The notes under the pieces: model-generated
The model's database searches: none
What the model was told of the DNA's origin: nothing
Seen by the model: only the letters and a program-made list of their open reading frames with translations
Made by a program: the position numbers and the translations under genes
Shown here: one piece after another, positions 49,120-63,202 of the stretch
Numbering within the stretch: position 1 is the first letter of the stretch
How the letters are laid out: every line of letters starts with the position of its first letter
Assembly: GCA_900107365.1 (NCBI GenBank)
Contig: FNPS01000010.1
Location: 62,001 to 126,000, forward strand
Length of the DNA: 64,000 bases
Direction: 5' to 3'
DNA from: Flavobacterium aquidurense
GTDB taxonomy: Bacteria; Bacteroidota; Bacteroidia; Flavobacteriales; Flavobacteriaceae

Positions 49120-50094
49120 CTAAACCTTTCTTCCCATTAAATTTTCACCGAAAGTTCTCAGAATATCTTTCTTTTCGGCATTGATGTTCATTTTTTCTAA
49201 AGTTTCAAAAGCTTTAAAAGTGTACATTTCTATAGCTTCCTGAGTCGCTTTTGAAGCTCCTGATTTATTAAAAATCGCTTTAGCAGTTTCTATTTTTTCT
49301 GAATTATCTTCTAACTGCAATCCGAATAATTGTTGTAATTCTGTTGCTTTTTCTTCAGATGAAAATTCAATAGCTTTTAAATATAAGTAGGTTTTTTTGT
49401 TTTCAATAATATCGCCTCCAACTTGTTTTCCAAACGTTTCCGGATCTCCAAAAGCATCTAAATAATCGTCTTGTAATTGAAATGCCAATCCAAGATTAAG
49501 TCCGAAATCATAAATTAAATCGGCTTCTTTTTCAGAAGTTTTAGCTACAATCGCACCCATTTTCATAGCTGCAGCAACTAAAACGGCTGTTTTGTATTCA
49601 ATCATTTTCAGGTATTCCGGAATGGTAACGTTGCTTCTTTCTTCAAAATCAACATCCCATTGTTGTCCTTCGCAAACTTCAAGAGCCGTTTTGCTGAATA
49701 ATTTTGCTAAATCCCTAAAAACAGTTGGTTCGTATTGCTCAAAATACTGATAAGCGAGAATTAGCATGGCATCGCCAGAAAGAATTCCGGTATTGATATT
49801 CCATTTTTCATGAACGGTTACTTGCCCTCTTCGTAAAGGAGCGTCATCCATAATATCATCATGAACCAATGAAAAGTTATGGAAAACTTCAACCGCCATT
49901 GCAGCCGGAAGTGCTATTTTATAATCGGCATCAAAAACTTCTGCAGCCATTAAAGTTAGTACGGGACGCATTCTTTTTCCTCCAAGCCCTAAAATATAGG
50001 AAATAGGTTCGTAAAGATTTTTGGGTTCTTTGTCTATGCTTTGGTTTTCTAAATAACTAATGAAAAATTCCTGGTACTGACTTATATCGTGCAT
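49120..50094 (-). CDS. Polyprenyl diphosphate synthase
   Basis: 324-aa all-helical trans-prenyltransferase that extends isoprenoid diphosphates. First aspartate-rich motif Asp79-Asp80-Ile-Met-Asp83 (HDDIMDDAPLRRG) and second Asp209-Asp-Tyr-Leu-Asp213 (QLQDDYLDAFGD). Phe74 stands five residues before the first motif, where a bulky residue limits chain length, so a C15-C20 product is possible; the exact product cannot be fixed by sequence. It may supply precursors for menaquinone, the electron carrier that complex I probably uses in this group, or for carotenoids. A TATCTTTG element (50128-50121, minus strand) lies upstream. Confidence 0.94.
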   Translation of the reverse strand: MHDISQYQEFFISYLENQSIDKEPKNLYEPISYILGLGGKRMRPVLTLMAAEVFDADYKIALPAAMAVEVFHNFSLVHDDIMDDAPLRRGQVTVHEKWNINTGILSGDAMLILAYQYFEQYEPTVFRDLAKLFSKTALEVCEGQQWDVDFEERSNVTIPEYLKMIEYKTAVLVAAAMKMGAIVAKTSEKEADLIYDFGLNLGLAFQLQDDYLDAFGDPETFGKQVGGDIIENKKTYLYLKAIEFSSEEKATELQQLFGLQLEDNSEKIETAKAIFNKSGASKATQEAIEMYTFKAFETLEKMNINAEKKDILRTFGENLMGRKV

Positions 50095-50128: not shown

Positions 50129-50237
50129 CAATTCAAATATGAATTATTCTTCGCTAAAATTTAAATGCAAAACAGATTTAAAATGAAACCGAATTCGACT
50201 GATTTTTAAGGTGTTAATTTTTTTTTAAAAAAAACAC

Positions 50238-50265
50238 GGAAACTTATTTGGTGTTTAGAGTTTCC
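50238..50265. promoter_or_regulatory. 28-bp operator 1 (GGAAAC-N16-GTTTCC), yceI promoter
   Basis: Inverted repeat GGAAAC / GTTTCC with a 16-bp centre. It overlaps the -33 element and spacer of the yceI promoter (TTTG 50247-50250, 19 bp, TATATTTG 50270-50277), where a bound repressor would block polymerase. Copies 2 and 3 share exactly the same arms and spacing. Confidence 0.75.
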
Positions 50266-50277
50266 TGTTTATATTTG
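50247..50277 (+). promoter_or_regulatory. promoter of yceI
   Basis: TTTG-N19-TATATTTG, full consensus. The predicted RNA start near 50284 gives a leader of about 78 nt that contains operator 2. Confidence 0.65.
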
Positions 50278-50288
50278 CACTCTTATTT

Positions 50289-50316
50289 GGAAACGCTGAA
50301 CACTGTAAAAGTTTCC
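50289..50316. promoter_or_regulatory. 28-bp operator 2 (GGAAAC-N16-GTTTCC), yceI leader
   Basis: Second exact copy of the arms with the same 16-bp spacing, just past the predicted transcription start of yceI. Two sites 51 bp apart would allow cooperative repression. Confidence 0.75.
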
Positions 50317-50361
50317 AAAGGAAGTTTAGATGAATTTTAAACTAAACAAAACCAAGTATTT

Positions 50362-50883
50362 ATGAAAACAACATGGACCTTAGATTCTAGTCAATCAGAT
50401 GTTTTAATTAAAATGAGACATTCGATTATTGCATACATGGGAGGAACGACAAATAAATTTGATGGTTACGTAAACATCGAAGACAATGAAATTGAAGATG
50501 CTTCGGTTGAGTTTTCATTAGATATTAATAATAAAAATGACAGTTTTCAGCACGTCGATTCTCACATGCAACTGAATGATTTATTCAATGTAAATGAGCA
50601 TCCAATTATCAGTTTTAAATCGACCTCATTTCAGAAAATCAATGATAATATCAATTTTTTCAAAGGAGATTTAACTATAAAGGATGTTACCCGAGTTGTA
50701 GAACTTGATGCAGAATTTATTGGGGTCAATTCTTATAACGGGCAGAAAAAAGTTGCTTTTGAAATTAAGGGAGATATTAAACGTCAGGATTTTGGTTTAG
50801 ATTATAATGCATTTAATTTCAACGGTGGTTTGGCATTAGGAAAAGATATCAAACTTATCGCGAATCTTGAATTTAGCATATAA
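50362..50883 (+). CDS. YceI-family lipid-binding protein
   Basis: 173-aa lipocalin-like YceI protein, a fold that binds polyisoprenoid or other amphipathic molecules. Typical start MKTTWTLDSSQSDVLIKMRHSIIAYMGGTTNKFDGYV, central FSLDINNKNDSFQHVDSHMQLNDLFNVNEHPIISFKS and KGDLTIKDVTRVVEL. Unlike periplasmic YceI it has no signal peptide, so it should be cytoplasmic. It is controlled by two copies of the same operator that precedes the TetR gene 47 bp downstream of operator 3, so it is probably part of the efflux regulon. Confidence 0.94.
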   Translation: MKTTWTLDSSQSDVLIKMRHSIIAYMGGTTNKFDGYVNIEDNEIEDASVEFSLDINNKNDSFQHVDSHMQLNDLFNVNEHPIISFKSTSFQKINDNINFFKGDLTIKDVTRVVELDAEFIGVNSYNGQKKVAFEIKGDIKRQDFGLDYNAFNFNGGLALGKDIKLIANLEFSI

Positions 50884-50929
50884 ATCTTACATAATGAATA
50901 ACTTAATGTAAAATTATTACAAATATAAT

Positions 50930-50957
50930 GGAAACTATTTTTTAAGTTTTAGTTTCC
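50930..50957. promoter_or_regulatory. 28-bp operator 3 (GGAAAC-N16-GTTTCC), tetR promoter
   Basis: Third copy of the palindrome, immediately upstream of the -7 element of the tetR promoter. Here the arms extend to GGAAACTA / TAGTTTCC. This is the position expected for autoregulation by the TetR protein. Confidence 0.78.
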
Positions 50958-50961
50958 TAAT

Positions 50962-50969
50962 TATATTTG
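50962..50969 (+). promoter_or_regulatory. -7 promoter element of the tetR-efflux operon
   Basis: TATATTTG ends 2 bp before an ATG at 50972. Transcription should begin about 5-8 bp downstream, past that codon, so translation must start at the next in-frame ATG (50990). Confidence 0.6.
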
Positions 50970-50989
50970 TAATGCAATTTGAAATTAAA

Positions 50990-51589
50990 ATGAAAGAGAA
51001 AATCATATCAAAAGCGAGTGAATTATTTTTAAAACTCGGTTTTAAAAGTGTTACGATGGATGATATTGCAGGCGAAATGTGTATTTCGAAAAAAACGATT
51101 TACAAATATTTCTGTAATAAAGAAGTGCTGATTGAAGAGAGTACTTCAATGGTTCACAAACAAGTTCATGAGGTTATTGATACTATAGTTGCAAAAAATT
51201 ATAATGCCATTCATGAGAACTTTGAAATTCGTGAAATGTTTCGGGATATGTTTAAAAATGCGGGCGATACTTCTCCTCTTTATCAATTAAAGAAACATTA
51301 TCCGGAAATTTATCAAAATGTAATGACGCATGAAATAGATCAGTGTAATCATTATTTTAAAGATAATATCTTAAAAGGAATAAGTGAAAATTTGTACAGA
51401 GCAGATTTGAACATTGATCTTTATGTAAAATTTTATTACACTTTAATTTTTCATATTAATGCCACTACTGTCTCAGAAAGAGAAGCACAAAAAATAGAAT
51501 TAGAAGCTTTGGAATATCATACAAGAGCTATGGCAACAGAAAAGGGAATAAGCGAATTAGAAAAACAACTTAAAAAAATTAGTACTTAA
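50990..51589 (+). CDS. TetR/AcrR-family transcriptional regulator
   Basis: 199-aa regulator, probable repressor of the downstream efflux genes. N-terminal helix-turn-helix (about 1-50: KEKIISKASELFLKLGFKSVTMDDIAGEMCISKKTIYKYFCNKEVLIEES) and a divergent all-helical ligand domain. I place the start at ATG 50990 (MKEKIISKASELF), not 50972, because the -7 element puts the RNA start between the two. It leads an operon with tolC-, MFP- and RND-type genes 13 bp downstream. The 28-bp palindrome in front of it and of yceI is its likely binding site. Confidence 0.93.
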   Translation: MKEKIISKASELFLKLGFKSVTMDDIAGEMCISKKTIYKYFCNKEVLIEESTSMVHKQVHEVIDTIVAKNYNAIHENFEIREMFRDMFKNAGDTSPLYQLKKHYPEIYQNVMTHEIDQCNHYFKDNILKGISENLYRADLNIDLYVKFYYTLIFHINATTVSEREAQKIELEALEYHTRAMATEKGISELEKQLKKIST

Positions 51590-51602: not shown

Positions 51603-52937
51603 ATGAAACGAATAATTCTTATATTTTTGTGTTCAATTGGCTTGACTGCCAACGCACAAGTCAAAACCCTAACCCTAAAAGAGGCTCTTACCTACGCGTT
51701 GCAAAACAAAGCGGATGCTAAAAAATCTAAACTACAGGTTGAAAATAGTGAGTATCAAATTCAGGAAATTCGCTCAAGAGCTTTACCGCAAATCTCAGGT
51801 AACGCAAGTTTAACCTATAATCCAATTCTACAAACAAGTGTAATCGATGGAGGATCTTTTGGTCAGCCAGGAACTTCTATTCAGGCTACTTTTGGTCAAA
51901 AATGGACTTCGGGAGCAGGAATCTCTTTGAGTCAGGCTTTGTTTGATCAATCTGTTTTTACAGGTTTGAGAGCTGCTAAATCGACTCGTGAATTTTATCA
52001 AATAAACGATCAGTTGACAGAAGAGCAGGTTATTGAAAGGGTTGCAAATAATTATTATGGTGTTTACGTACAACGTGAAAGATTAATTTTATTAGATAGT
52101 AACTACGTTAATACTACTAAAGTTCGTGATATCGTACAAGGACAGTTTGATAATGGTCTGGCTAAAAAAATTGACTTAGACCGTATTATCGTAAAAATGT
52201 CAAATATTGATACAGAGCGTCAACAAATTAAAAATCAGATTACTTTACAGGAAAATGCTTTGAAGTTTTATATGGGAATGCCTATTGAAGCTCAAATCGA
52301 GATTCCAAAAGAAGAATTTGAAGTAGTTCCGGCTGCTTTGACAGAAGTTCCGAATGTTGAAAACAGAACAGAATATCTGCTTTTGAAAAAACAGGAAGAA
52401 TTATTAGTGTTTAATAAGAAAGCTACTGAAGCACTGTATTACCCAACTTTAAACTTAGTTGCAGGTTACAATTATATAGGACAAGGTCCTGAAATGCCTC
52501 TTTTTGGAAAACCAAGAGATGGTGTGTATTGGTCTGATTATTCTGCAATTGGATTGAATTTACATGTACCAATCTTTACAGGTTTTGGAACCCGTGCCAA
52601 AGTAAGACAGGCAGATGTTGAAATCAGATCGCTTCAGGAAGATATTAAAGACACCAAACTTTCACTTGATTTAGATTACAGAAACGCAATGGCTCAAATT
52701 GAGAACAATCTTATTACGATTAATAATCAAAAGGAAAACATGCGTTTGGCTAAAGAGATTTTAAGCGATACAAAAAACAATTACCTTCAGGGATTAGCAT
52801 CATTAACCGATTTACTGGATGCTGAAAACGAATCTCTTGAAGCTCAAAATAATTTTACAAGAGCAGTTTTAAATTACAAAATTGCTGAGATAACACTAAT
52901 CAAATCAAAAGGCGAACTAAAAACTCTTATTAAATAA
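51603..52937 (+). CDS. TolC-family outer-membrane efflux channel
   Basis: 444-aa outer-membrane channel protein that completes a tripartite pump. Signal peptide (1-18), two tandem TolC-type OEP domains with long coiled helices (KTLTLKEALTYALQNKADAKKSKLQVENSEYQIQEIRS and DIKDTKLSLDLDYRNAMAQIENNLITINNQKENMRLAKEIL), and short barrel strands (FGQKWTSGAGISLSQALFDQSVF). It sits between the regulator and the adaptor gene (9 bp). Confidence 0.94.
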   Translation: MKRIILIFLCSIGLTANAQVKTLTLKEALTYALQNKADAKKSKLQVENSEYQIQEIRSRALPQISGNASLTYNPILQTSVIDGGSFGQPGTSIQATFGQKWTSGAGISLSQALFDQSVFTGLRAAKSTREFYQINDQLTEEQVIERVANNYYGVYVQRERLILLDSNYVNTTKVRDIVQGQFDNGLAKKIDLDRIIVKMSNIDTERQQIKNQITLQENALKFYMGMPIEAQIEIPKEEFEVVPAALTEVPNVENRTEYLLLKKQEELLVFNKKATEALYYPTLNLVAGYNYIGQGPEMPLFGKPRDGVYWSDYSAIGLNLHVPIFTGFGTRAKVRQADVEIRSLQEDIKDTKLSLDLDYRNAMAQIENNLITINNQKENMRLAKEILSDTKNNYLQGLASLTDLLDAENESLEAQNNFTRAVLNYKIAEITLIKSKGELKTLIK

Positions 52938-52946
52938 CTAATTACA

Positions 52947-54014
52947 ATGAAGAAAACTATTATAACAATCGTAATCATAATCGCAGCTTTAGGGGTGATT
53001 GGATATGTCCTAAATAATAATAAGAAGGAGAATAAGGCAAAAACAGATATTGTTGCTGAGAAAAATGCTGCTGTTTCAGTAAAAGTAACTCCTGTAAAAA
53101 CAGAAGAAATTTCATTAGATTTCGTTGCAAACGGAAACTTTCAACCCATCCAACAATTGACTTTCTCTGCTGAAAAATCAGGAAAAGTAATCAGCGTTTT
53201 GGCAAAAGAAGGAGATTACGTAAAAGTAGGTCAGACTTTATTGACAGTTCGTGGAGATGTAATCAATGTAAATGCACAACAAGCACAAGCTGTTTACGCA
53301 AATGCAAAATCAGATTATGCTCGTTACGAAAATGCTTTTAAAACAGGGGGTGTTACAAAACAACAACTAGATCAGGCAAAACTGGCTTTAACAAATGCTC
53401 AATCTAGCTTAACTCAGGCAAATATTAATGTTGGAGATACAAGAGTAAAAGCCCCAATCAACGGATTTATTAATAAAAAATACATTGAGCCAGGATCTAT
53501 CTTAACAGGTATGCCGGCAACTGCACTGTTTGATATCGTTAACGTTTCTAAATTAAAATTAGTAGTTACAGTAAACGAAAATCAAGTTGCAAGTTTGAAA
53601 GTTGGAAACACTATCAATGTAACGGCTAGTGTTTATCCTGATAAAACTTTCTCTGGAAAAATCACTTTTATTGCTGCTAAAGCGGATGAATCTTTAAACT
53701 TTCCTGTTGAGATTGAAATCACAAACAACGTAAACAACGACTTAAAAGCGGGTATGTACGGAACTGCAAATTTTGCATCAAACCAACAAAAACAACATTT
53801 GATGGTTGTGCCTAGAAATGCTTTCGTAGGAAGTGTAAGCAGCAACGAAATATTCGTGGTTGAAAATGGTAAAGCAAAATTGAAAAAAGTAACTGCTGGA
53901 AGAATTTTAGGAGATCAGGTAGAAATCATCAATGGATTATCTGACGGAGAAGTTGTAATTACGACAGGTCAAATCAACTTGCAAGACGGTAATACAGTAG
54001 AAATTATTAAGTAA
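52947..54014 (+). CDS. RND efflux periplasmic adaptor subunit
   Basis: 355-aa membrane-fusion protein that bridges the inner-membrane pump and TolC. N-terminal membrane helix (about 4-22, TIITIVIIIAALGVIGYVL), a lipoyl-like half-motif (LTFSAEKSGKVISVLAKEGDYVKVGQTLLTV), an alpha-hairpin (about 110-150), the second lipoyl half (VKAPINGFINKKYIEPGSIL), then beta-barrel and membrane-proximal domains ending VVITTGQINLQDGNTVEII. It has no lipobox. Confidence 0.95.
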   Translation: MKKTIITIVIIIAALGVIGYVLNNNKKENKAKTDIVAEKNAAVSVKVTPVKTEEISLDFVANGNFQPIQQLTFSAEKSGKVISVLAKEGDYVKVGQTLLTVRGDVINVNAQQAQAVYANAKSDYARYENAFKTGGVTKQQLDQAKLALTNAQSSLTQANINVGDTRVKAPINGFINKKYIEPGSILTGMPATALFDIVNVSKLKLVVTVNENQVASLKVGNTINVTASVYPDKTFSGKITFIAAKADESLNFPVEIEITNNVNNDLKAGMYGTANFASNQQKQHLMVVPRNAFVGSVSSNEIFVVENGKAKLKKVTAGRILGDQVEIINGLSDGEVVITTGQINLQDGNTVEIIK

Positions 54015-54118: not shown

Positions 54119-57100
54119 ATGAAATTAGCCGAAATATCCATAAAACGTCCGTCGTTGGTAATTGTATTGTTTACAATTCTAACACTTGGTGGATTGTTCA
54201 GTTACAGCCAGTTAGGCTATGAGCTGATCCCGAAATTTGAACAAAACGTTATTACAATTTCTACTATTTATCCTGGAGCTTCTCCAAGTGAGGTAGAAAA
54301 TACCGTAACTAAGAAAATTGAAGATGCGATTGCTTCTTTAGAGAATGTCAAGAAAATCGACTCAAAATCATACGAGAGTTTATCTATTGTTTCGATCACA
54401 TTGACATCAAACGCCAAAGTCGATTTCTCCTTAAATGATGCACAGCGTAAAATTAATGCGATCATCAGTGATTTACCAGATGATGTGAAGACGCCGGCAT
54501 TAACAAAATTCTCGCTGAGTGATTTACCAATCATGACACTTGGTGCCAACGGAAAAATGGACGAAGCAGCATTTTATGACTTAATTGACAAAAAAATTGC
54601 TCCTATTTTATCTCGTGTACAAGGTGTGGCACAGGTTAATATTATTGGTGGTGAAGAACGTGAGATTCAGGTAAATCTTGACGCTTTGAAAATGCAGGGT
54701 TACGGATTATCTATTCCGCAGGTTCAACAAAATATTTTGACTTCGAACTTAGATTTCCCAACCGGAAATATTCAGACCCGTAACCAAAAAATATTAATTC
54801 GTTTAGCGGGTAAATACAAAAGCGTTGAAGAATTAAGAAACCTTGTAGTTTCATCTCAAAACGGAATTCAGGTTCGTTTAAGTGATATTGCAGATGTTCA
54901 GGATACTCAGAAAATTGCAGAAAAAATATCTCGTGTAGATCAAAAAAGTGCTATTGTTTTGCAAATCGTAAAACAATCTGATGCAAATGCAGTAGCGGTA
55001 AGTGAGCAGTTATTGAAAACAATTGCTATTCTTGAAAAAGATTATGAAAAAAGTCACTTAAAATTAGAAGTTGCAAAAGACAGTACAATCTTTACTCTTG
55101 AAGCAGCAGATTCTGTTGTACACGATTTATTGATTGCGGTTGTTCTGGTAGCGTTTGTAATGTTGTTCTTCCTGCACAGTATTAGAAACTCATTAATCGT
55201 AATGGTTTCGATTCCAGCATCTTTGATTGCCACTTTTATTGGTATTTATTTAATGGGATATACTTTAAACTTAATGAGTTTACTAGGATTGTCTCTTGTG
55301 GTAGGTATTCTGGTCGATGATGCGATTGTAGTCCTCGAGAATATTTACAGACACATGGAAATGGGTAAAAGCCGAATTCGCGCCTCTTATGACGGTACTG
55401 CCGAAATTGGTGGAACGGTAACGTCGATTACGTTGGTAATTGTGGTGGTGTTCTTGCCTATTGCGATGAGTTCTGGTTTGGTTTCTAATATTATTACACA
55501 ATTTTGTGTTACCGTAATTATATCAACGTTACTTTCACTTTTAGCTTCATTTACCATTATTCCATGGTTATCATCTCGTTATGGTAAATTAGAACATATT
55601 GAAGGAAAGAATTTATTTGGAAGAATCATTCTTGGTTTCGAAAGTTATTTAACACGCTTTACGGAATGGATTTCTGAATTATTAACATGGTGTTTAGATC
55701 ATTATGTTAAAACAATTTTAGTTGTAGTGCTGTTATTCTTTAGTTCTATTGCATTAATTCCGGCAGGTTTCATTGGAGGAGAGTTTTTCGCTTCTTCTGA
55801 TAGTGGAGAGTTCTTGGTTCAAATCGAAATGCCAAAAGATGCGTCGTTAGAACAAACGAACTTTATGACGCAAAAAGCAGAAGCTTATTTGAAAGCTCAG
55901 GAATATGTTCACAGTCAAATTACAACAGTAGGACAAACTTCTGAAGGTTTTGGAGCATCGCAAGCTACAGCTTACAAAGCAGAGATTGACGTAAAAATGA
56001 TCGAACAAAAAGATCGTACTGATAATGCAAACGTTTACGCTGCAAAAATTAAACGTAAATTAGAAAAAGTATTAGTTGGAGCAAAAGTTAAAACGGTTCC
56101 GGTTGGTATTTTAGGAACTGCTGAAGATGCAACTTTAGGATTAATTGTAACGGGTCCTTCAACAGAAGCGGCTATGGCATATGCTAAACTAGCGGAAGCT
56201 GAATTACGTACAATTCCCGGAACAACAGAGATCAAATTGACAGTTGAAGATGGAAACCCTGAAGTAAATGTAAAAGTAGATCGTGATAAAATGGCTGCTT
56301 TAGGATTAACACTTCAAACAGTTGGTTTAACGATGCAAACGGCTTTTAGCGGAAATACAGATGGTAAATACAGAGCTGGAGAATATGAGTACGATATCGA
56401 TATTAGATACAATGCGTTCGACAGAAAAAGTATTACTGACGTTAGTAATTTGATTTTTATCAATGCTGCTGGTCAACAAATTAAATTATCTCAATTTGCA
56501 ACCATTACAGAAGGTTCAGGACCTAGCCAGTTAGAGCGTAGAGATAAATCGGCGTCGGTAACGGTTAAAGGACAAAACGTTGGTGTTCCTTCAGGAACAA
56601 TTGTACAACAATGGCAGGTTAAATTAGACAAACTGAAAAAACCAGCCGGAGTAAATTATATCTGGGGTGGAGATCAGGAAAACCAATCTGAAGGATTTGG
56701 TACTTTAGGAATCGCTTTATTGGCCGCTATTATTTTAGTTTACCTTGTAATGGTTGGACTTTACGATAGTTTCGTACACCCGTTTGTGGTATTATTTGCT
56801 ATTCCGCTTTCGTTTATTGGTGCGATGTTGGCATTGGCTTTGACCAATAACTCATTAAACATCTTTACGATTTTGGGTATCATTATGTTGATTGGTCTGG
56901 TGTGTAAGAATGCGATCATGCTTGTCGATTACACCAACCAAAGAAGAGCAGCTGGAGAATCAATCAGAACGGCATTAATTCAGGCAAATCACGCTCGTTT
57001 ACGTCCGATTTTGATGACTACAATTGCGATGGTATTTGGTATGTTCCCAATTGCATTAGCATCTGGAGCAGGAGCAGAATGGAAAAACGGATTGGCTTGG

Positions 57101-57292
57101 GTAATTATCGGAGGATTAATTTCTTCTTTATTCCTAACCTTGATCGTAGTTCCGGTTATTTATAATATCATGGAGAAAATTATTCATAAATTCTCTAAAG
57201 GAGAAAAAATCGATTACGAAGCTGAAATGGTTGCTGATTATGAGCATAAAGAATTAAGCGAAGACGGTTTTAATCCTAAACATACGCATTAA
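54119..57292 (+). CDS. RND multidrug efflux transporter, HAE1 family
   Basis: 1057-aa inner-membrane proton-driven pump of the AcrB/HAE1 type with 12 helices in two pseudo-repeats. Porter domains lie between TM1 and TM2 (ASPSEVENTVTKKIEDAIASLENVKKI) and TM7 and TM8. The proton-relay Asp pair is in TM4 (VVGILVDDAIVVLENIYRHME), and the TM10-11 partner region is IGLVCKNAIMLVDYTNQRRAAG, with a Lys as in AcrB. Complete and in frame. It should export hydrophobic compounds whose identity would also be sensed by TetR. Confidence 0.96.
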   Translation: MKLAEISIKRPSLVIVLFTILTLGGLFSYSQLGYELIPKFEQNVITISTIYPGASPSEVENTVTKKIEDAIASLENVKKIDSKSYESLSIVSITLTSNAKVDFSLNDAQRKINAIISDLPDDVKTPALTKFSLSDLPIMTLGANGKMDEAAFYDLIDKKIAPILSRVQGVAQVNIIGGEEREIQVNLDALKMQGYGLSIPQVQQNILTSNLDFPTGNIQTRNQKILIRLAGKYKSVEELRNLVVSSQNGIQVRLSDIADVQDTQKIAEKISRVDQKSAIVLQIVKQSDANAVAVSEQLLKTIAILEKDYEKSHLKLEVAKDSTIFTLEAADSVVHDLLIAVVLVAFVMLFFLHSIRNSLIVMVSIPASLIATFIGIYLMGYTLNLMSLLGLSLVVGILVDDAIVVLENIYRHMEMGKSRIRASYDGTAEIGGTVTSITLVIVVVFLPIAMSSGLVSNIITQFCVTVIISTLLSLLASFTIIPWLSSRYGKLEHIEGKNLFGRIILGFESYLTRFTEWISELLTWCLDHYVKTILVVVLLFFSSIALIPAGFIGGEFFASSDSGEFLVQIEMPKDASLEQTNFMTQKAEAYLKAQEYVHSQITTVGQTSEGFGASQATAYKAEIDVKMIEQKDRTDNANVYAAKIKRKLEKVLVGAKVKTVPVGILGTAEDATLGLIVTGPSTEAAMAYAKLAEAELRTIPGTTEIKLTVEDGNPEVNVKVDRDKMAALGLTLQTVGLTMQTAFSGNTDGKYRAGEYEYDIDIRYNAFDRKSITDVSNLIFINAAGQQIKLSQFATITEGSGPSQLERRDKSASVTVKGQNVGVPSGTIVQQWQVKLDKLKKPAGVNYIWGGDQENQSEGFGTLGIALLAAIILVYLVMVGLYDSFVHPFVVLFAIPLSFIGAMLALALTNNSLNIFTILGIIMLIGLVCKNAIMLVDYTNQRRAAGESIRTALIQANHARLRPILMTTIAMVFGMFPIALASGAGAEWKNGLAWVIIGGLISSLFLTLIVVPVIYNIMEKIIHKFSKGEKIDYEAEMVADYEHKELSEDGFNPKHTH

Positions 57293-57363: not shown

Positions 57364-57625
57364 CAATTAAGGAGTTTGGGATTTTTTATTTGACTGAAGT
57401 TCCTAATTTGGAATTTATTTATTAGAATTTAAACCCCTTTATTTCTTCACAATTTTGGTTGTTTTTTCTTTAGGTTTTTCCTTTAAATAAAATCCCAAAT
57501 TCCGATTAAGGAATTTGGGATTTTCATTTAGCTGAAGTTCCTAAGTTGGAATTTGGAATTTATTTATTGGAATTTAAACCCCTCTATTTCTTCACAATTT
57601 TGACTGTTTTTGTTTTGCCTTCTGA
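57364..57625. repeat. tandem duplication (about 139 bp) covering the 3' end of the SprB-like gene
   Basis: Two adjacent units share, in order, GGGATTTT, CTGAAGTTCCTAA, GGAATTT, GAATTTAAACCCCT and TATTTCTTCACAATTTTG. The right-hand unit includes the real end of the SprB-like gene; the left-hand unit is non-functional. The offset of the GGGATTTT block is 139 bp (57378 versus 57517). Confidence 0.6.
57439..57495 (-). pseudogene. remnant of a T9SS C-terminal domain end
   Basis: Read on the minus strand this piece gives LGFYLKEKPKEKTTKIVKK and a stop. It can be lined up with the true adhesin end GMYFLKVKSEGKTKTVKIVKK about 140 bp away. It has no start codon. Either the 3' end was duplicated or it is the scar of a second T9SS gene. 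Confidence 0.5.
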
Positions 57626-60600
57626 TTTTACTTTTAAGAAATACATTCCTGAAGCAACATTTGACAAATCAATTTCAGAGTAATCATTGTCTACTTTTTT
57701 AGATAAAACAGTTGTTCCTGACACCGAATATATTTCGATTTCATCAATTACAGCCGTATTGCTTATAGTAAGAGTATGAAGCACAGGATTTGGATAAAAT
57801 GTGAAATTTGGAAGTACAAAATCTGGTGTAGAAAGCGCTCCATTCAATTTTACAGTTACTGCAAGACGTTCTTTGCTCTCAATTCCGTTTATGGTTTGAG
57901 AAGCGTAATAAGTTGTTCCGTCAACCAAAACTGTTGATAAAGGCAGAGGAGTTTCTTTTGTTTTACTTGTGCTTCCGTCCGTGATGTTTAAATTCATATA
58001 CCATCTGATGTTTTGTCCATTAACAACTATATCAGCTAAAGTCAGCCCTGGTTTTAATTCGATTTCGAACTTGTTTAAGCCATTTATTACTGGCGAAGGC
58101 GGATCAACCAAAACATTTATTGTGGCGCTGCATCCATTTAAATCGGAAGTAATAACAGTATAAGGACCGGGATTTAATTGCGAGAAAACATTATTTGTTG
58201 AAAACTTATCTAGGTTTGGAGATAGGGCAAATTTGTAGCCACCAGCTCCTCCGGATGGCTCAATAGTAATGGTTTGATTTTGAACAGTTATACCTGAAAT
58301 TAATGGGGATGCAGGTTCTGTAATAACAATTTGATTGGTTGTCAGACATCCTTTAGCGTCTTTTACTGTTATACTATAAACACCAGCTTGTAAATTATAA
58401 AAACTAATACTATTACCGCTATTAGTAGTAAAAACACCATTGTTGAGAGAATATGTATAAGGAGCCTGGCCACCAGATATAGTAGCTGTAATCGAACCGC
58501 TTGCTCCTCCTTTACACTTAATGTTAGTAGCTGTTGCCGTAATTGCGGGAGCATTTATCTGGCTAATTGCGGCGGTAAGAGAAACTATGGTGTTTTTATA
58601 ATCACGGACCTTGATAGTATAATTTCCAGGTAAAAAGGTGGAATACACATTTGAATTTGTGTAGGTTACACCATTATCAAAGGAGTAATAATAAGGCTGA
58701 AAACCTCCTGTGGCGTTCACGGTTATAGTTCCGGAATTGGCGCAAGTTGCAGCAAGAACATCGGCCGTGGCAGAAAGTGGAGGTGACGGTATGACGTTAA
58801 TTCCTGACATAATATAACCACATCCGTTTGCATCTGTGACTTGTGCACCGTAAAGCCCTAAAGGTAGTCTGGTAAATACTCCATTGTCTTGTGGGCCTGC
58901 AACTACAACTCCGCCTTTATCCTGTAAAAAATATTGATAAGGTCCAGTTCCGCCTTTTGCATTCACAATTATAGACTGATCATTAGCAGGAAAAGCAGTT
59001 GCCGACAATGCTTCAGATGGTTCGGTTAAAGTAATCATTGTTGTGGCAAGACAGCTATTGGCATCTCTCACGGTAATAGTAAATGTACCAATGCGTAAAT
59101 TAGTAAAGGTATTTGCAGGACTAAAAGTAACACCATTTATAGAATAACTATAAGGAGCTTTTCCTCCAATAGCCACTGCTGTTACACTTCCTGTATTATC
59201 ACCTTTACAAAGTATATTTGAGGTAACTGCTGCGGTTATAGAAGGTACGCTTACCTGAGTTACATCGGCAACAATGGAGCTTAGATTATTGCCGGCATCG
59301 CGGACAGTTATTGTATAAGTACCTGGTGCCAAATTAAAAACGTTTAAAGAAGCATAACTACCACCATTTAGTGAATAGTTATAAGGAGCTGTGCCTCCAG
59401 ATGCAGTAACAGTTACTGTTCCAACAGGATTTACACATGTTGCCGGCGTTGTAGCAAAAGTTACTAAAAGAGGATTAGGATTACTAGCTATCGTGATATT
59501 TGCCTTTGAGTAGGCACAACCGTTCGTATCTTTTACCTGAACACCATATGATCCAACTTTTAGACCTTTAAAAACATTTGATATTTGGAAAGGACCAGTT
59601 GGCAATCCAAAATTGTCTGTAATAGCATAAGTATAAGAACCAGCTCCGCCTGTGGCAATAACCGTTATTTCTCCATCATTGTTACTGGCGGTTGTATTTT
59701 TAACAGAAGAAGTTACAAAGATTGGATCAGGTTGGGTTATTCTCATAAGTGAGGTAGCAGGACAGCCGGCAGCATCTATTACATTTAAGGTGTAATCTCC
59801 GGCAGCTAAAGAACTAAAAGTTGCACTCGAAGTATAAACACTATTATTTATTGAATACAAATAAGGAGCTTTTCCGCCTGATGCAATTATTTCTGCAGAT
59901 CCGTCATTAGACCCGTTACAACTTACATTTTTGTAACTACCAGAAACTGTTAAAGAAGAAGAATAAGGAGGGATTATAAAACTACTTGTTTTGGTGTCAT
60001 TATTAGCATCCTTGACAGTGACAGTATAAGTTCCTCCAGGGATATTGGTAAAAGTATTAGTACTTTGATAAGTTATCCCCCCATCTATAGAATAGGTATA
60101 GGGTATCTGACCTCCAGCTGCAGTAATAGCAATTGAAGCATTACTTGTACAATCTATTGTTTTTGTAATAGCTACTGTAGAAGTTAATGAATTTGGCTGT
60201 TCGATTGAAAAGCTTATTGGATAAGGAGATTCGCAACCTGTTGAATCTTTTATTTTTATAAGATGGTGTCCAGGTGTTACATTTGTAAAAACAGGGCTAG
60301 TTTGAACACTTCCTTCATCTAAAGAATAAAGATAAAACCCACTTCCTCCACTAACACTCACGACAGTTGCCGTTTGCCCTTCAATATTTATTGTACCAAG
60401 AATGTTTTCCAGCGGCGCTATAACATGTACGAACTTGTTAACGCAGAAATTAGCATCTCTTACCGAAATAGTGTACGTTCCGGGACTGACAGTAGTATAA
60501 GTAATCGTGCTGGTATAAGCCTCATTATTTACTGAATATTGATATGGGGGCTGACCACCAGTAGCATTAATTGTTATTGTTGCATTATAATTGGTACAAT

Positions 60601-63202
60601 CCAGAGGTGTTGAAGTTGCAGTTGCAATTACCGGGACAAGTGCGTTGATTAAGATTTCATTTGAATTTGAGATATTATCTGCGGCATCCTTTACTTTTAC
60701 ACTATATGTTCCGGCAGGAATATTGGTAAAACTAGGAGTACTTTGATAGGTCAATCCGTCATTTATAGAGTATTGATAAGGATCATATCCTCCTTTAGCA
60801 TTAACAGTTATTTCGGCATTACTAACACAATCCAATTGTTTAGTAACAGTTGATACAGAAGTTAAGGGAGCTGCAACTCTAGCCTCAAAACGAACAGGCT
60901 CACAATTAGTTGAATCCTTTAATCTTATTTGATAATAGCCAGGTGCTAAATTTGTAAAAACATTATTGGCTTGAAAATCACCTGTACCAATAGCATATTG
61001 ATAAGAGCCAGTTCCTCCTTTCACATCAATGACAGAAACAGTTGAGCCTTCAACAAGCAAGTCTCCAAATAGAATTTCCGGTTCTACTATAGTGTGAGAT
61101 AGCGATACTAAACAGCTGTTGCTATCTTTAACTGTAATAATATAATTTCCGGCTTTTAATTTTGTAAAAGTATTGACGTTTGTGTAGGTACCGCCATTTA
61201 TAGAATACTCAAAGGGAGCTTCTCCACTTAAAGCAGTAACAGTTAACGAAGCCGTTTCGCCGGCACATAGTATTGGTGTACTTGTTGCTGTTGCGGTTAC
61301 GGCAACAGGTGGACTTATAATTATTTGACTTGTACTTGAAACAGAATTTAATGCATCTTTTACAGTTAGATAATAAGTACCAGGAGGTACTTTACTAAAA
61401 ATATTCCCGGATTGATATGATGTTCCACTCATTGAATAGGAAAGGGAATAATAATATGGACCTTGCCCGCCTGCAGCGGCAAGAATTATTTGTGTCTTAC
61501 CACTACAATCTGCCTGTTTAATAGTGGAATATGTAAAAGTTACAGGACTTGGATTCTCAATAGTAACAATAAAATCATAAGACTCACATCCTTTTGAATC
61601 CTTCACATGTACAATATGATTTCCGGCACTTAAGTTTGTAAACACATTTTCAGTCTGATAAGCTGCTAAATCTACTGAATATTGATAAGGTGCTGTTCCC
61701 GCCTGACCATTAAGAGTTAGAGTTTGACCCTCAATAACAATATCAGGATATATTGGTGTTGGCTGTGCAATAATATGTTCAATTGAAACAATACAACCAA
61801 CTGCATCTTTTACGGTGATAAAGTAAGTTCCTCCAGCAACATTATAAGTATTGGCAGCTGTGAAACCACCATTGTTTATAGCGTATTGATAGGGACTTTG
61901 TCCTCCTGTTGCATTAATTGTTAGTATCGTTTTGTCTTTAGCACAAACTAATGGTGTGCTTGAAGCTGTTGCAAGTAGTGGAGCAGGAGGTTGCTGCACC
62001 ATATTAAATAACGGAGGAGAAACACAGCCTTTACTATCCTTTATTAAAAAAGTGTAATTGCCTGGAGTCAAATTATTAAAAATATTGCTATTGGTAAAAG
62101 TTTGTCCATTATCAATAGAATAGTAAAACGGAGACTGTCCAGACGTTGCATGTACCATCATCGATGCACCTGTGCAACTTGTGGCATTGGTAACGAGTGC
62201 AACTCCATTTACAGCAACCGGTTGAGCTATGGTTATTAAATTTGGATTAGTCACCGAATTTAAAGCGTCTTTTACCGTAACAGAATAAGTACCGGCACTT
62301 AGATTATTAAAAATATTAAATGTTTGATAAGTATAACCGTTATCTACTGAATATAAATATGGAGCTTGTCCGCCAAAAGCAGTAATATTTAGCTGGGCAT
62401 TATTACCGTTACCTGTGCAATCTAATTCTCTGATAGCTACTGCAGCATTCAAAAAAGGAGCTACAGTTGCTTTTACCACTGCTACACAGCCCTGAACGTC
62501 TTTTATTCTTACATCATAATTTCCGGGAATAAAATTTGTGAAATAATTCGCTGCCTGATAAGTCAATCCATCTAAAGAATATTGGTAAGGAGCCGTTCCT
62601 CCTGCAGCAGTAATCAGGATTGTATTTTGGTCTAAAACCCTGGAAGTTGCAGTTACAGCAATTGGTGCCGTTATGGTATAGTTAGCTGTAGTCGGGCAGC
62701 TTGTACCCGTATCTAATACCTGTATACTATAAACTCCGGCAGATAAATTAGTAAAAACAGGACTGCTTGAGAAAGAACCGGCATTTAAAGCATAATAATA
62801 TGGACCAACTCCACCAGTAGCAGTTACGGTCAATGATGACTTGTCGCCAGCACATAAAATAGCGGTATGGGTTGCTGTTATATTTAAAGCGGCAACAACT
62901 TTTATATTAAAAGAATTGGTGGTTATATTCTCATTATTGTCAATTCTGACGTAGATGGTTGTAGCACCTACAGCTGCATTGTAATTGGAAGGATTTGCAA
63001 TTGGATTTGTATTATTGAGTGCGGCAGTAAGGCTTAAGTGAAAACTTACGGTTGTCTCATCCGGATTCAAATTTCCAATCAAAAGAGGTTTTTGTTTGGC
63101 TAAATCAAAATTGTTGTCTCCTGGACAATGTACAATATCACTAACCTGGGCATAAAAAACAGTAGTAAACAAGAAAAGAAAACAAAGTAGAGTTTTTTTC
63201 AT
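57584..63202 (-). CDS. Giant SprB-repeat surface adhesin with T9SS sorting domain
   Basis: 1872-aa secreted protein. Signal peptide (1-19), a short unique N-terminal domain (about 20-110), then 21 SprB-type repeats of about 75-80 residues, each with a [AG]PYxYSxxxG core followed by F.NL..G.Y.V.V.D..GC, and a type-A T9SS domain at the end (FYPNPVLHTLTISN ... KTVKIVKK). The repeat family is that of SprB, the mobile gliding adhesin of F. johnsoniae, but this protein is far smaller and is not next to the sprBCDF genes, so it is a paralogue-like adhesin. Many conserved Cys and Asp occur in the repeats. It is probably moved over the cell surface or involved in attachment, which is inference. Confidence 0.9.
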   Translation of the reverse strand: MKKTLLCFLFLFTTVFYAQVSDIVHCPGDNNFDLAKQKPLLIGNLNPDETTVSFHLSLTAALNNTNPIANPSNYNAAVGATTIYVRIDNNENITTNSFNIKVVAALNITATHTAILCAGDKSSLTVTATGGVGPYYYALNAGSFSSSPVFTNLSAGVYSIQVLDTGTSCPTTANYTITAPIAVTATSRVLDQNTILITAAGGTAPYQYSLDGLTYQAANYFTNFIPGNYDVRIKDVQGCVAVVKATVAPFLNAAVAIRELDCTGNGNNAQLNITAFGGQAPYLYSVDNGYTYQTFNIFNNLSAGTYSVTVKDALNSVTNPNLITIAQPVAVNGVALVTNATSCTGASMMVHATSGQSPFYYSIDNGQTFTNSNIFNNLTPGNYTFLIKDSKGCVSPPLFNMVQQPPAPLLATASSTPLVCAKDKTILTINATGGQSPYQYAINNGGFTAANTYNVAGGTYFITVKDAVGCIVSIEHIIAQPTPIYPDIVIEGQTLTLNGQAGTAPYQYSVDLAAYQTENVFTNLSAGNHIVHVKDSKGCESYDFIVTIENPSPVTFTYSTIKQADCSGKTQIILAAAGGQGPYYYSLSYSMSGTSYQSGNIFSKVPPGTYYLTVKDALNSVSSTSQIIISPPVAVTATATSTPILCAGETASLTVTALSGEAPFEYSINGGTYTNVNTFTKLKAGNYIITVKDSNSCLVSLSHTIVEPEILFGDLLVEGSTVSVIDVKGGTGSYQYAIGTGDFQANNVFTNLAPGYYQIRLKDSTNCEPVRFEARVAAPLTSVSTVTKQLDCVSNAEITVNAKGGYDPYQYSINDGLTYQSTPSFTNIPAGTYSVKVKDAADNISNSNEILINALVPVIATATSTPLDCTNYNATITINATGGQPPYQYSVNNEAYTSTITYTTVSPGTYTISVRDANFCVNKFVHVIAPLENILGTINIEGQTATVVSVSGGSGFYLYSLDEGSVQTSPVFTNVTPGHHLIKIKDSTGCESPYPISFSIEQPNSLTSTVAITKTIDCTSNASIAITAAGGQIPYTYSIDGGITYQSTNTFTNIPGGTYTVTVKDANNDTKTSSFIIPPYSSSLTVSGSYKNVSCNGSNDGSAEIIASGGKAPYLYSINNSVYTSSATFSSLAAGDYTLNVIDAAGCPATSLMRITQPDPIFVTSSVKNTTASNNDGEITVIATGGAGSYTYAITDNFGLPTGPFQISNVFKGLKVGSYGVQVKDTNGCAYSKANITIASNPNPLLVTFATTPATCVNPVGTVTVTASGGTAPYNYSLNGGSYASLNVFNLAPGTYTITVRDAGNNLSSIVADVTQVSVPSITAAVTSNILCKGDNTGSVTAVAIGGKAPYSYSINGVTFSPANTFTNLRIGTFTITVRDANSCLATTMITLTEPSEALSATAFPANDQSIIVNAKGGTGPYQYFLQDKGGVVVAGPQDNGVFTRLPLGLYGAQVTDANGCGYIMSGINVIPSPPLSATADVLAATCANSGTITVNATGGFQPYYYSFDNGVTYTNSNVYSTFLPGNYTIKVRDYKNTIVSLTAAISQINAPAITATATNIKCKGGASGSITATISGGQAPYTYSLNNGVFTTNSGNSISFYNLQAGVYSITVKDAKGCLTTNQIVITEPASPLISGITVQNQTITIEPSGGAGGYKFALSPNLDKFSTNNVFSQLNPGPYTVITSDLNGCSATINVLVDPPSPVINGLNKFEIELKPGLTLADIVVNGQNIRWYMNLNITDGSTSKTKETPLPLSTVLVDGTTYYASQTINGIESKERLAVTVKLNGALSTPDFVLPNFTFYPNPVLHTLTISNTAVIDEIEIYSVSGTTVLSKKVDNDYSEIDLSNVASGMYFLKVKSEGKTKTVKIVKK

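Follow-up and report, generated by a model that had tools for sequence, protein, structure and literature searches.

The window analysed here, a stretch of 64,000 nucleotides from Flavobacterium aquidurense, contains three exact copies of the 28-bp palindrome GGAAAC-N16-GTTTCC, which in all likelihood are operators through which the TetR protein encoded at 50990-51589 represses both yceI and its own tetR-tolC-MFP-RND operon until a hydrophobic or amphipathic ligand releases it. Observed are the sites, their geometry, their overlap with promoters, their conservation and their linkage to tetR, and it is this linkage that points to TetR as the protein that would bind them. The regulon advanced in the preliminary description, in which TetR controls itself, the pump and yceI, is very probably right, as an autoregulatory operator that also covers the yceI promoter; its picture of a simple palindrome with a free centre did not hold, and its further suggestion, that YceI may bind the compound which the pump exports, is kept here as a hypothesis. 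The larger result is the depth to which the operator is conserved.

Three consecutive genes on the forward strand, encoding a TolC-type outer membrane efflux protein (51603-52937; Pfam OEP, E=4e-48), the membrane fusion protein of the pump (52947-54014; TIGR01730 RND_mfp, E=1.5e-61) and an RND permease of 1057 residues, here called type A (54119-57292; ACR_tran, E=2e-246), are predicted to form an RND tripartite efflux operon. On the same strand tetR (50990-51589; Pfam TetR_N, PF00440, E=1e-10) encodes a protein of 199 residues with the TetR_N helix-turn-helix (HTH) domain at its N-terminus (41.6 bits against a cut-off of 24), and the HTH residues S33, K34, K35, T36, Y38 and K44 are invariant in all 138 rows of the family alignment. 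The AlphaFold2 model of this TetR is all helical but of low confidence (mean pLDDT 68.1, pTM 0.55) and too poor to build conclusions on; a Foldseek search with this low-confidence model gave one match at E<=0.001, with a TM of 0.38. The gene yceI (50362-50883, forward strand) encodes 173 residues of the YceI/polyisoprenoid-binding family (Pfam PF04264, E=5e-31, spanning residues 5-171), with PDB relatives 5w2d and 1wub, and its nearest solved relatives include polyisoprenoid-binding proteins. By profile and sequence it belongs to the same family as the bacterial lipocalins TT1927b (1WUB) and BcnA/BcnB; the structures of BcnA and BcnB hold octaprenyl pyrophosphate according to PMC5350466, and a B. 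cenocepacia lipocalin is reported to raise antibiotic resistance. As a point of difference from these lipocalins, the window YceI has no signal peptide visible by eye and is therefore probably cytoplasmic. The divergent neighbour, on the reverse strand at 49120-50094, is a polyprenyl synthetase (Pfam PF00348, E=4e-79).

The palindromes lie at 50238-50265 (site 1, forward strand), 50289-50316 (site 2, reverse strand) and 50930-50957 (site 3, forward strand), all three with exact arms and a spacing of 16 nt, as first reported. Shuffling gave an expectation of 0.00 copies in the window, and none of 100 shuffles reached three. When the whole genome (5.44 Mb, 29 contigs) was searched, the same three exact sites were returned, all of them at this locus, and the reversed-pattern control returned none. 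One mismatch added ten further places, and with up to two mismatches the genome held 262 matches against 287 for the reversed control, which is the background level; thus, only the exact form is informative, and a wider regulon is not claimed from the mismatched search. A TetR paralogue in the same genome (G000:C28:9753-10340, L126), 52% identical, lacks an exact site. Sites 1 and 2 carry one asymmetric sequence in opposite orientations, 51 bp apart and 79% complementary over 28 nt, and site 3 is without that core; at another locus (L129) the copies of sites 1 and 2 are perfect mirror images 45 bp apart. Site 1, the predicted operator of the yceI promoter, comprises the outer arms B and D and an inner half-site C at about 50251-50255, and two nucleotides outside its left arm stands an outermost half-site A (AAAAAAC, 50229-50235, forward strand). 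Site 2 is the predicted operator in the yceI leader, and site 3, a predicted arms-only operator on the tetR promoter, carries the arms with neither half-site A nor GT at positions 14-15.

In Flavobacterium, sites 1 and 3 lie at a fixed distance from promoter boxes. Read against the -33/-7 consensus TTTG/TAnnTTTG of PMC6847099, the -7 box TATATTTG is found at 50270-50277 for yceI and at 50962-50969 for tetR, both on the forward strand, and starts exactly 4 nt after site 1 and after site 3, respectively. A candidate -33 box of yceI, TTTG at 50247-50250 (forward strand), falls within site 1 and precedes the -7 box by 19 nt. We infer that transcription starts near 50282 (yceI) and 50974 (tetR), so that site 1 would extend from about -44 to -17 and site 2 from about +8 to +35 relative to the yceI start. 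Because of the start near 50974, the ATG at 50990 is the likelier start codon of tetR, rather than the start of the open reading frame at 50972, and the aligned starts of relatives agree. Among the 80 best Flavobacterium loci the 4-nt distance recurs in all 79 exact copies of site 1 and in all 59 exact N16 copies of site 3; across the family (n=122) it is 4 nt in 20 cases, 5 nt in 79, 6 nt in 15 and 7 nt in one, with no match in seven. Since the site covers the -33 box and the spacer, repression would be steric.

It could be argued that the inverted repeats act as RNA hairpins, serving as terminators or processing signals, as site 2 lies in the yceI leader and site 3 is bracketed by a perfect inverted repeat of 14 nt. 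Site 1, however, lies upstream of the predicted start and would hence be absent from the yceI transcript, while the outer repeat of site 3 keeps all 14 pairs in only 3 of 74 relatives, the changes falling in its right arm and seldom in its left. An asymmetric GT core at a constant distance from the promoter agrees with binding at the DNA level, and we regard a role as hairpins as highly improbable. The repeat around site 3 (50916-50929 and 50960-50973) mirrors the -7 box, and its left arm, TTATTACAAA, is kept in most relatives, possibly as a divergent promoter or another element.

Comparison with related flavobacteria, for which the 80 best relatives of the window TetR were used, bears out the arms and qualifies what had been said of the centre. 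Site 1 is exact in 79 of these 80 loci (one mismatch in L076), as is site 2 (one mismatch in L095). The preliminary description had the centre not conserved, and this part fails: the centre of site 1 is G13 G14 T15 in 100% of the loci and that of site 2 is AACAC at 92-100%, which is the core of site 1 inverted. Half-site A (AAAAAAC) is the same in all 80 aligned rows, in contrast to the two adjoining nucleotides, which vary, and AAAC stands 2 nt before GGAAAC in all 79 exact copies of site 1. Site 3 has a centre of a different type, and its spacer ranges from N15 to N17: 59 of the 80 loci have an exact N16 copy, 14 an exact N17, one an exact N15 and four a single mismatch, and of the remaining two one has two mismatches (L025) and one no recognisable site (L079).

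To examine the family and the class, wider samples were drawn; the genus is called Flavobacterium here after the close named loci, and the family and class are taken to be Flavobacteriaceae and Bacteroidia. The family sample held about one genome per genus and the TetR matched in 138 of its 149 genomes; 138 tetR loci from 137 genomes were examined, counting both matches of one genome (G134) and leaving out the second, paralogous match of the window genome (G000). Within 400 nt upstream of tetR, 120 of the 138 loci have the exact N16 site and 137 a site with at most two mismatches, the loci other than the 120 comprising one exact N17, one exact N15, 15 sites with one or two mismatches and one locus with none. 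The last belongs to a congener of the window (G127), in which exact sites precede yceI. The 138th genome with a TetR match (G020) has a site with one mismatch. When spacers of 4 to 30 nt were scanned, exact arms occurred in the family only at 15, 16 and 17 (1, 120 and 1 loci). It should be emphasized that the 28-mer is present in 125 of the 149 family genomes against 49 of 149 for the reversed control (control counted by eye); because the control also hits many genomes, it is the position before tetR, and not the count of genomes, that carries the argument. Counted by eye, the 28-mer occurs in 123 and a pattern of four half-sites in 101 of the 138 genomes with a tetR match, against 2 and 0, respectively, of the 11 genomes without one.

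Alignment of the 120 exact family sites indicates that the 28-mer is part of a larger element. G14 and T15 are each kept at 99%, and beyond the left arm AAAAC stands at -8 to -4, with C-4 at 99%; GT14-15 is kept in 134 of the 137 family sites with up to two mismatches, and an AAAC outside the left arm lies 3 nt before it in 123 of these, 2 nt before it in three and is not seen in 11. The conserved centre was also considered as a -33 box alone, a reading that is rejected because G14 and T15 are each kept at 99% although TTTG is missing there in 44 of the 113 family sites with a -7 match. The predicted family operator is thus a set of four half-sites over 37 bp, xxAAAC-N3-xxAAAC-N7-GTTTxx-N3-GTTTxx, the dyad of which falls on position 10 of the 28-mer. 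The core of this pattern, AAAC-N5-AAAC-N7-GTTT-N5-GTTT, was found in 101 of the 149 family genomes (twice in six) against 6 of 149 for the control, counted by eye. The strict pattern does not occur in the window genome (G000), as half-site A of site 1 lies at 2 nt and not at 3. Four matches to the four-half-site pattern away from tetR (L379-L382) lie inside open reading frames and were taken as chance. The half-sites are spaced in steps of 9, 13 and 22 bp, which match no TetR-DNA complex known to us.

The regular presence of the divergent polyprenyl synthetase raises the possibility that the element serves this gene, or another regulator, and that tetR is a mere neighbour. Indeed the synthetase is found in 131 of the 138 family stretches, and in 104 loci a distance of 46-242 nt separates the start of this gene from the site. 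Against this, the site remains exact beside tetR in 13 of the 15 loci (two of them of the window's genus) in which the synthetase is more than 450 nt away, in four of the seven family stretches that have no synthetase, and 14 of 15 stretches from outside the family have no match to the synthetase, yet the site is present. On the synthetase side the reverse TAnnTTTG nearest the site is 57-65 nt from its edge in 42 of the 104 loci and missing in 32, and thus there is no consistent promoter overlap in that direction. We therefore consider this reading improbable.

Beyond the family, 15 hand-picked loci of the same order all carry the site with a spacer of N15-N17 and no more than two mismatches. 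Nine of them carry the N16 form (six exact, two with one mismatch, one with two), and the other six, which were detected only once spacers other than 16 were admitted, have N17 (four exact, one with one mismatch) or an exact N15. In the class sample 216 of 247 genomes have a match to the TetR profile, and among 20 loci hand-picked for good TetR matches and from different families there are 14 exact N16 sites, two exact N17, three with one mismatch and one locus with none (L418); the 28-mer occurs in 161 of the 247 genomes against about 87 of 247 for the reversed control, counted by eye. Two genomes of another family (L424, L435) have an exact site about 55 nt upstream of tolC, no tetR being detected in the 3-kb stretch, and their tetR matches lie on other contigs, with their own sites. 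By eye, some class-level loci (L414, L401) carry a further GTTT half-site, 9 bp beyond the right arm. A covariation between TetR residue 22 and the spacer, N with N17 in five order-level loci and T in the ten that have N16 or N15, at first looked promising and was dropped when class-level loci departed from it (N22 with N16 in L415; T22 and S22 with N17 in L399 and L404). Four loci of one genus in another family (L429-L432, genus g234) have extra exact sites with a shared centre beside other open reading frames, two of which resemble by eye the start of a TonB-dependent receptor; this hints at a wider regulon there.

The association with yceI is much narrower. It is found at 2 of the 138 family loci, both in the window's genus, and in none of the 136 stretches fetched from outside it; within Flavobacterium, yceI lies beside or near tetR in about 55 of 121 genomes, counted by eye. 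As yceI is rare at the family loci and was found there in one genus only, the simplest reading is that site 1, by position and core the counterpart of the tetR operator of other genera, is the ancestral operator of tetR, and that yceI was inserted later between operator and tetR. The inverted site 2 and site 3 would then be later gains, site 3 acquired for tetR. A survey of 40 Flavobacterium loci, among which unusual ones were deliberately included, covered 45 tetR operons; in 44 the 1.1 kb upstream contains one or more exact N15-N17 sites, and in 17 yceI lies between an exact site and tetR. Of the 40 operons beside a polyprenyl synthetase, 23 encode the type A pump of the window, 16 a longer, distantly related type B and one is cut off; the type A permease has 1046-1058 residues where complete and type B 1150-1167. 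In the window genome no close match to the longer type was found, the best being its own pump at 29%. Both types occur in tandem in five Flavobacterium genomes (in L233 the second permease lies beyond the stretch), and the second tetR copy has an exact site upstream in four of the five (L229, L230, L231 and L233, not L232). The alternation of two RND types behind the same operator and TetR (L229-L233, L218, L219) suggests exchange or differential loss of pump cassettes.

It is possible, though on balance we doubt it, that TetR regulates its own operon and that yceI came under the operator by an accident of insertion, sharing neither ligand nor function with the pump. A tight pairing of YceI with the pump is disfavoured because yceI occurs with either pump type (14 operons with type A, three with type B) and was not detected at this locus in other genera, and other open reading frames also lie between site and tetR (L216, L250). 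In contrast with an accident is the observation that the exact site precedes yceI in all 30 loci examined and is doubled in 25 of them, which suggests selected control. The 17 yceI operons of the survey above form a second set, with an exact site upstream in 17 of 17, and at least two genomes are common to both sets.

In the mechanism that we favour, TetR without its ligand would bind half-sites A-B-C-D across the -33 box and spacer, probably in the form of at least two dimers, and keep sigma-A polymerase off the promoter; sites 1 and 2 would mediate repression of yceI, and site 3, probably a weaker, arms-only copy, that of tetR-tolC-MFP-RND. A hydrophobic or amphipathic ligand would free TetR, and pump and YceI would rise together. 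The stoichiometry would probably depart from the single dimer on the palindrome implied earlier. In B-DNA the 22 bp between the main arms correspond to about 75 angstrom, and the recognition helices of QacR and CprB are reported to be 37-38 angstrom apart (PMC4150764); at twice this spacing a single dimer on both arms is unlikely, and two or more per site are likely. A nature for the ligand can only be guessed at, an isoprenoid-type compound being suggested by the adjacent polyprenyl synthetase and by a member of a polyisoprenoid-binding family in the predicted regulon.

The closest known systems are QacR of S. aureus and the pair-of-dimers regulators CprB, CgmR, SlmA and Ms6564, which have a long operator in common with that predicted for the window TetR; according to PMC4150764, QacR is a TetR-family exporter regulator with a 28-bp operator, and operators that take a pair of dimers measure 22-32 bp and in several instances are not palindromic. 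The window operator, with a 28-bp core and 37 bp with the outer half-site, falls within this range by its core. It differs from the QacR class in two additional half-sites, one lying 9 bp beyond one arm and an inner one at 9 bp from the opposite arm, and the sequence relation to that class is at the level of the TetR superfamily only. SmeT of Stenotrophomonas, which belongs to smeDEF, is a near system that was compared by its description, and the passage compared mentions neither a yceI nor a four-half-site layout. No description of the operator or regulon was found in the open-access literature, which omits most subscription papers, and a term search of the main text of an F. psychrophilum transcriptome (PMC9723704) gave no 'TetR', 'palindrom' or 'GGAAAC'.

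To our knowledge it is rare for a local TetR repressor to have its operator kept base by base over long distances, and conservation of this one across the class points to strong selection on a regulator with no description found in the open-access literature. A bolder reading, which we put forward tentatively and think less probable than not to be correct in full, is that one TetR lineage and its AAAC/GTTT half-sites every 9 bp form a class-wide regulatory address, kept across many families while the downstream genes (pump type, yceI and other open reading frames) change, with two overlapping AAAC-N16-GTTT units offset by 9 bp as a hitherto undescribed assembly and an endogenous membrane or isoprenoid compound as ligand. 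The operator gives a ready test of what these bacteria sense before the RND pump is switched on, and the regulation of YceI may reveal the ligand of that protein. Exchange of pumps behind a fixed operator moreover amounts to a natural experiment that asks whether a regulator has to match its pump. Downstream of the pump, on the reverse strand at 57584-63202, lies a gene for a protein of 1872 residues with many repeated units, the C-terminal end of which resembles by eye a type IX secretion sorting domain.
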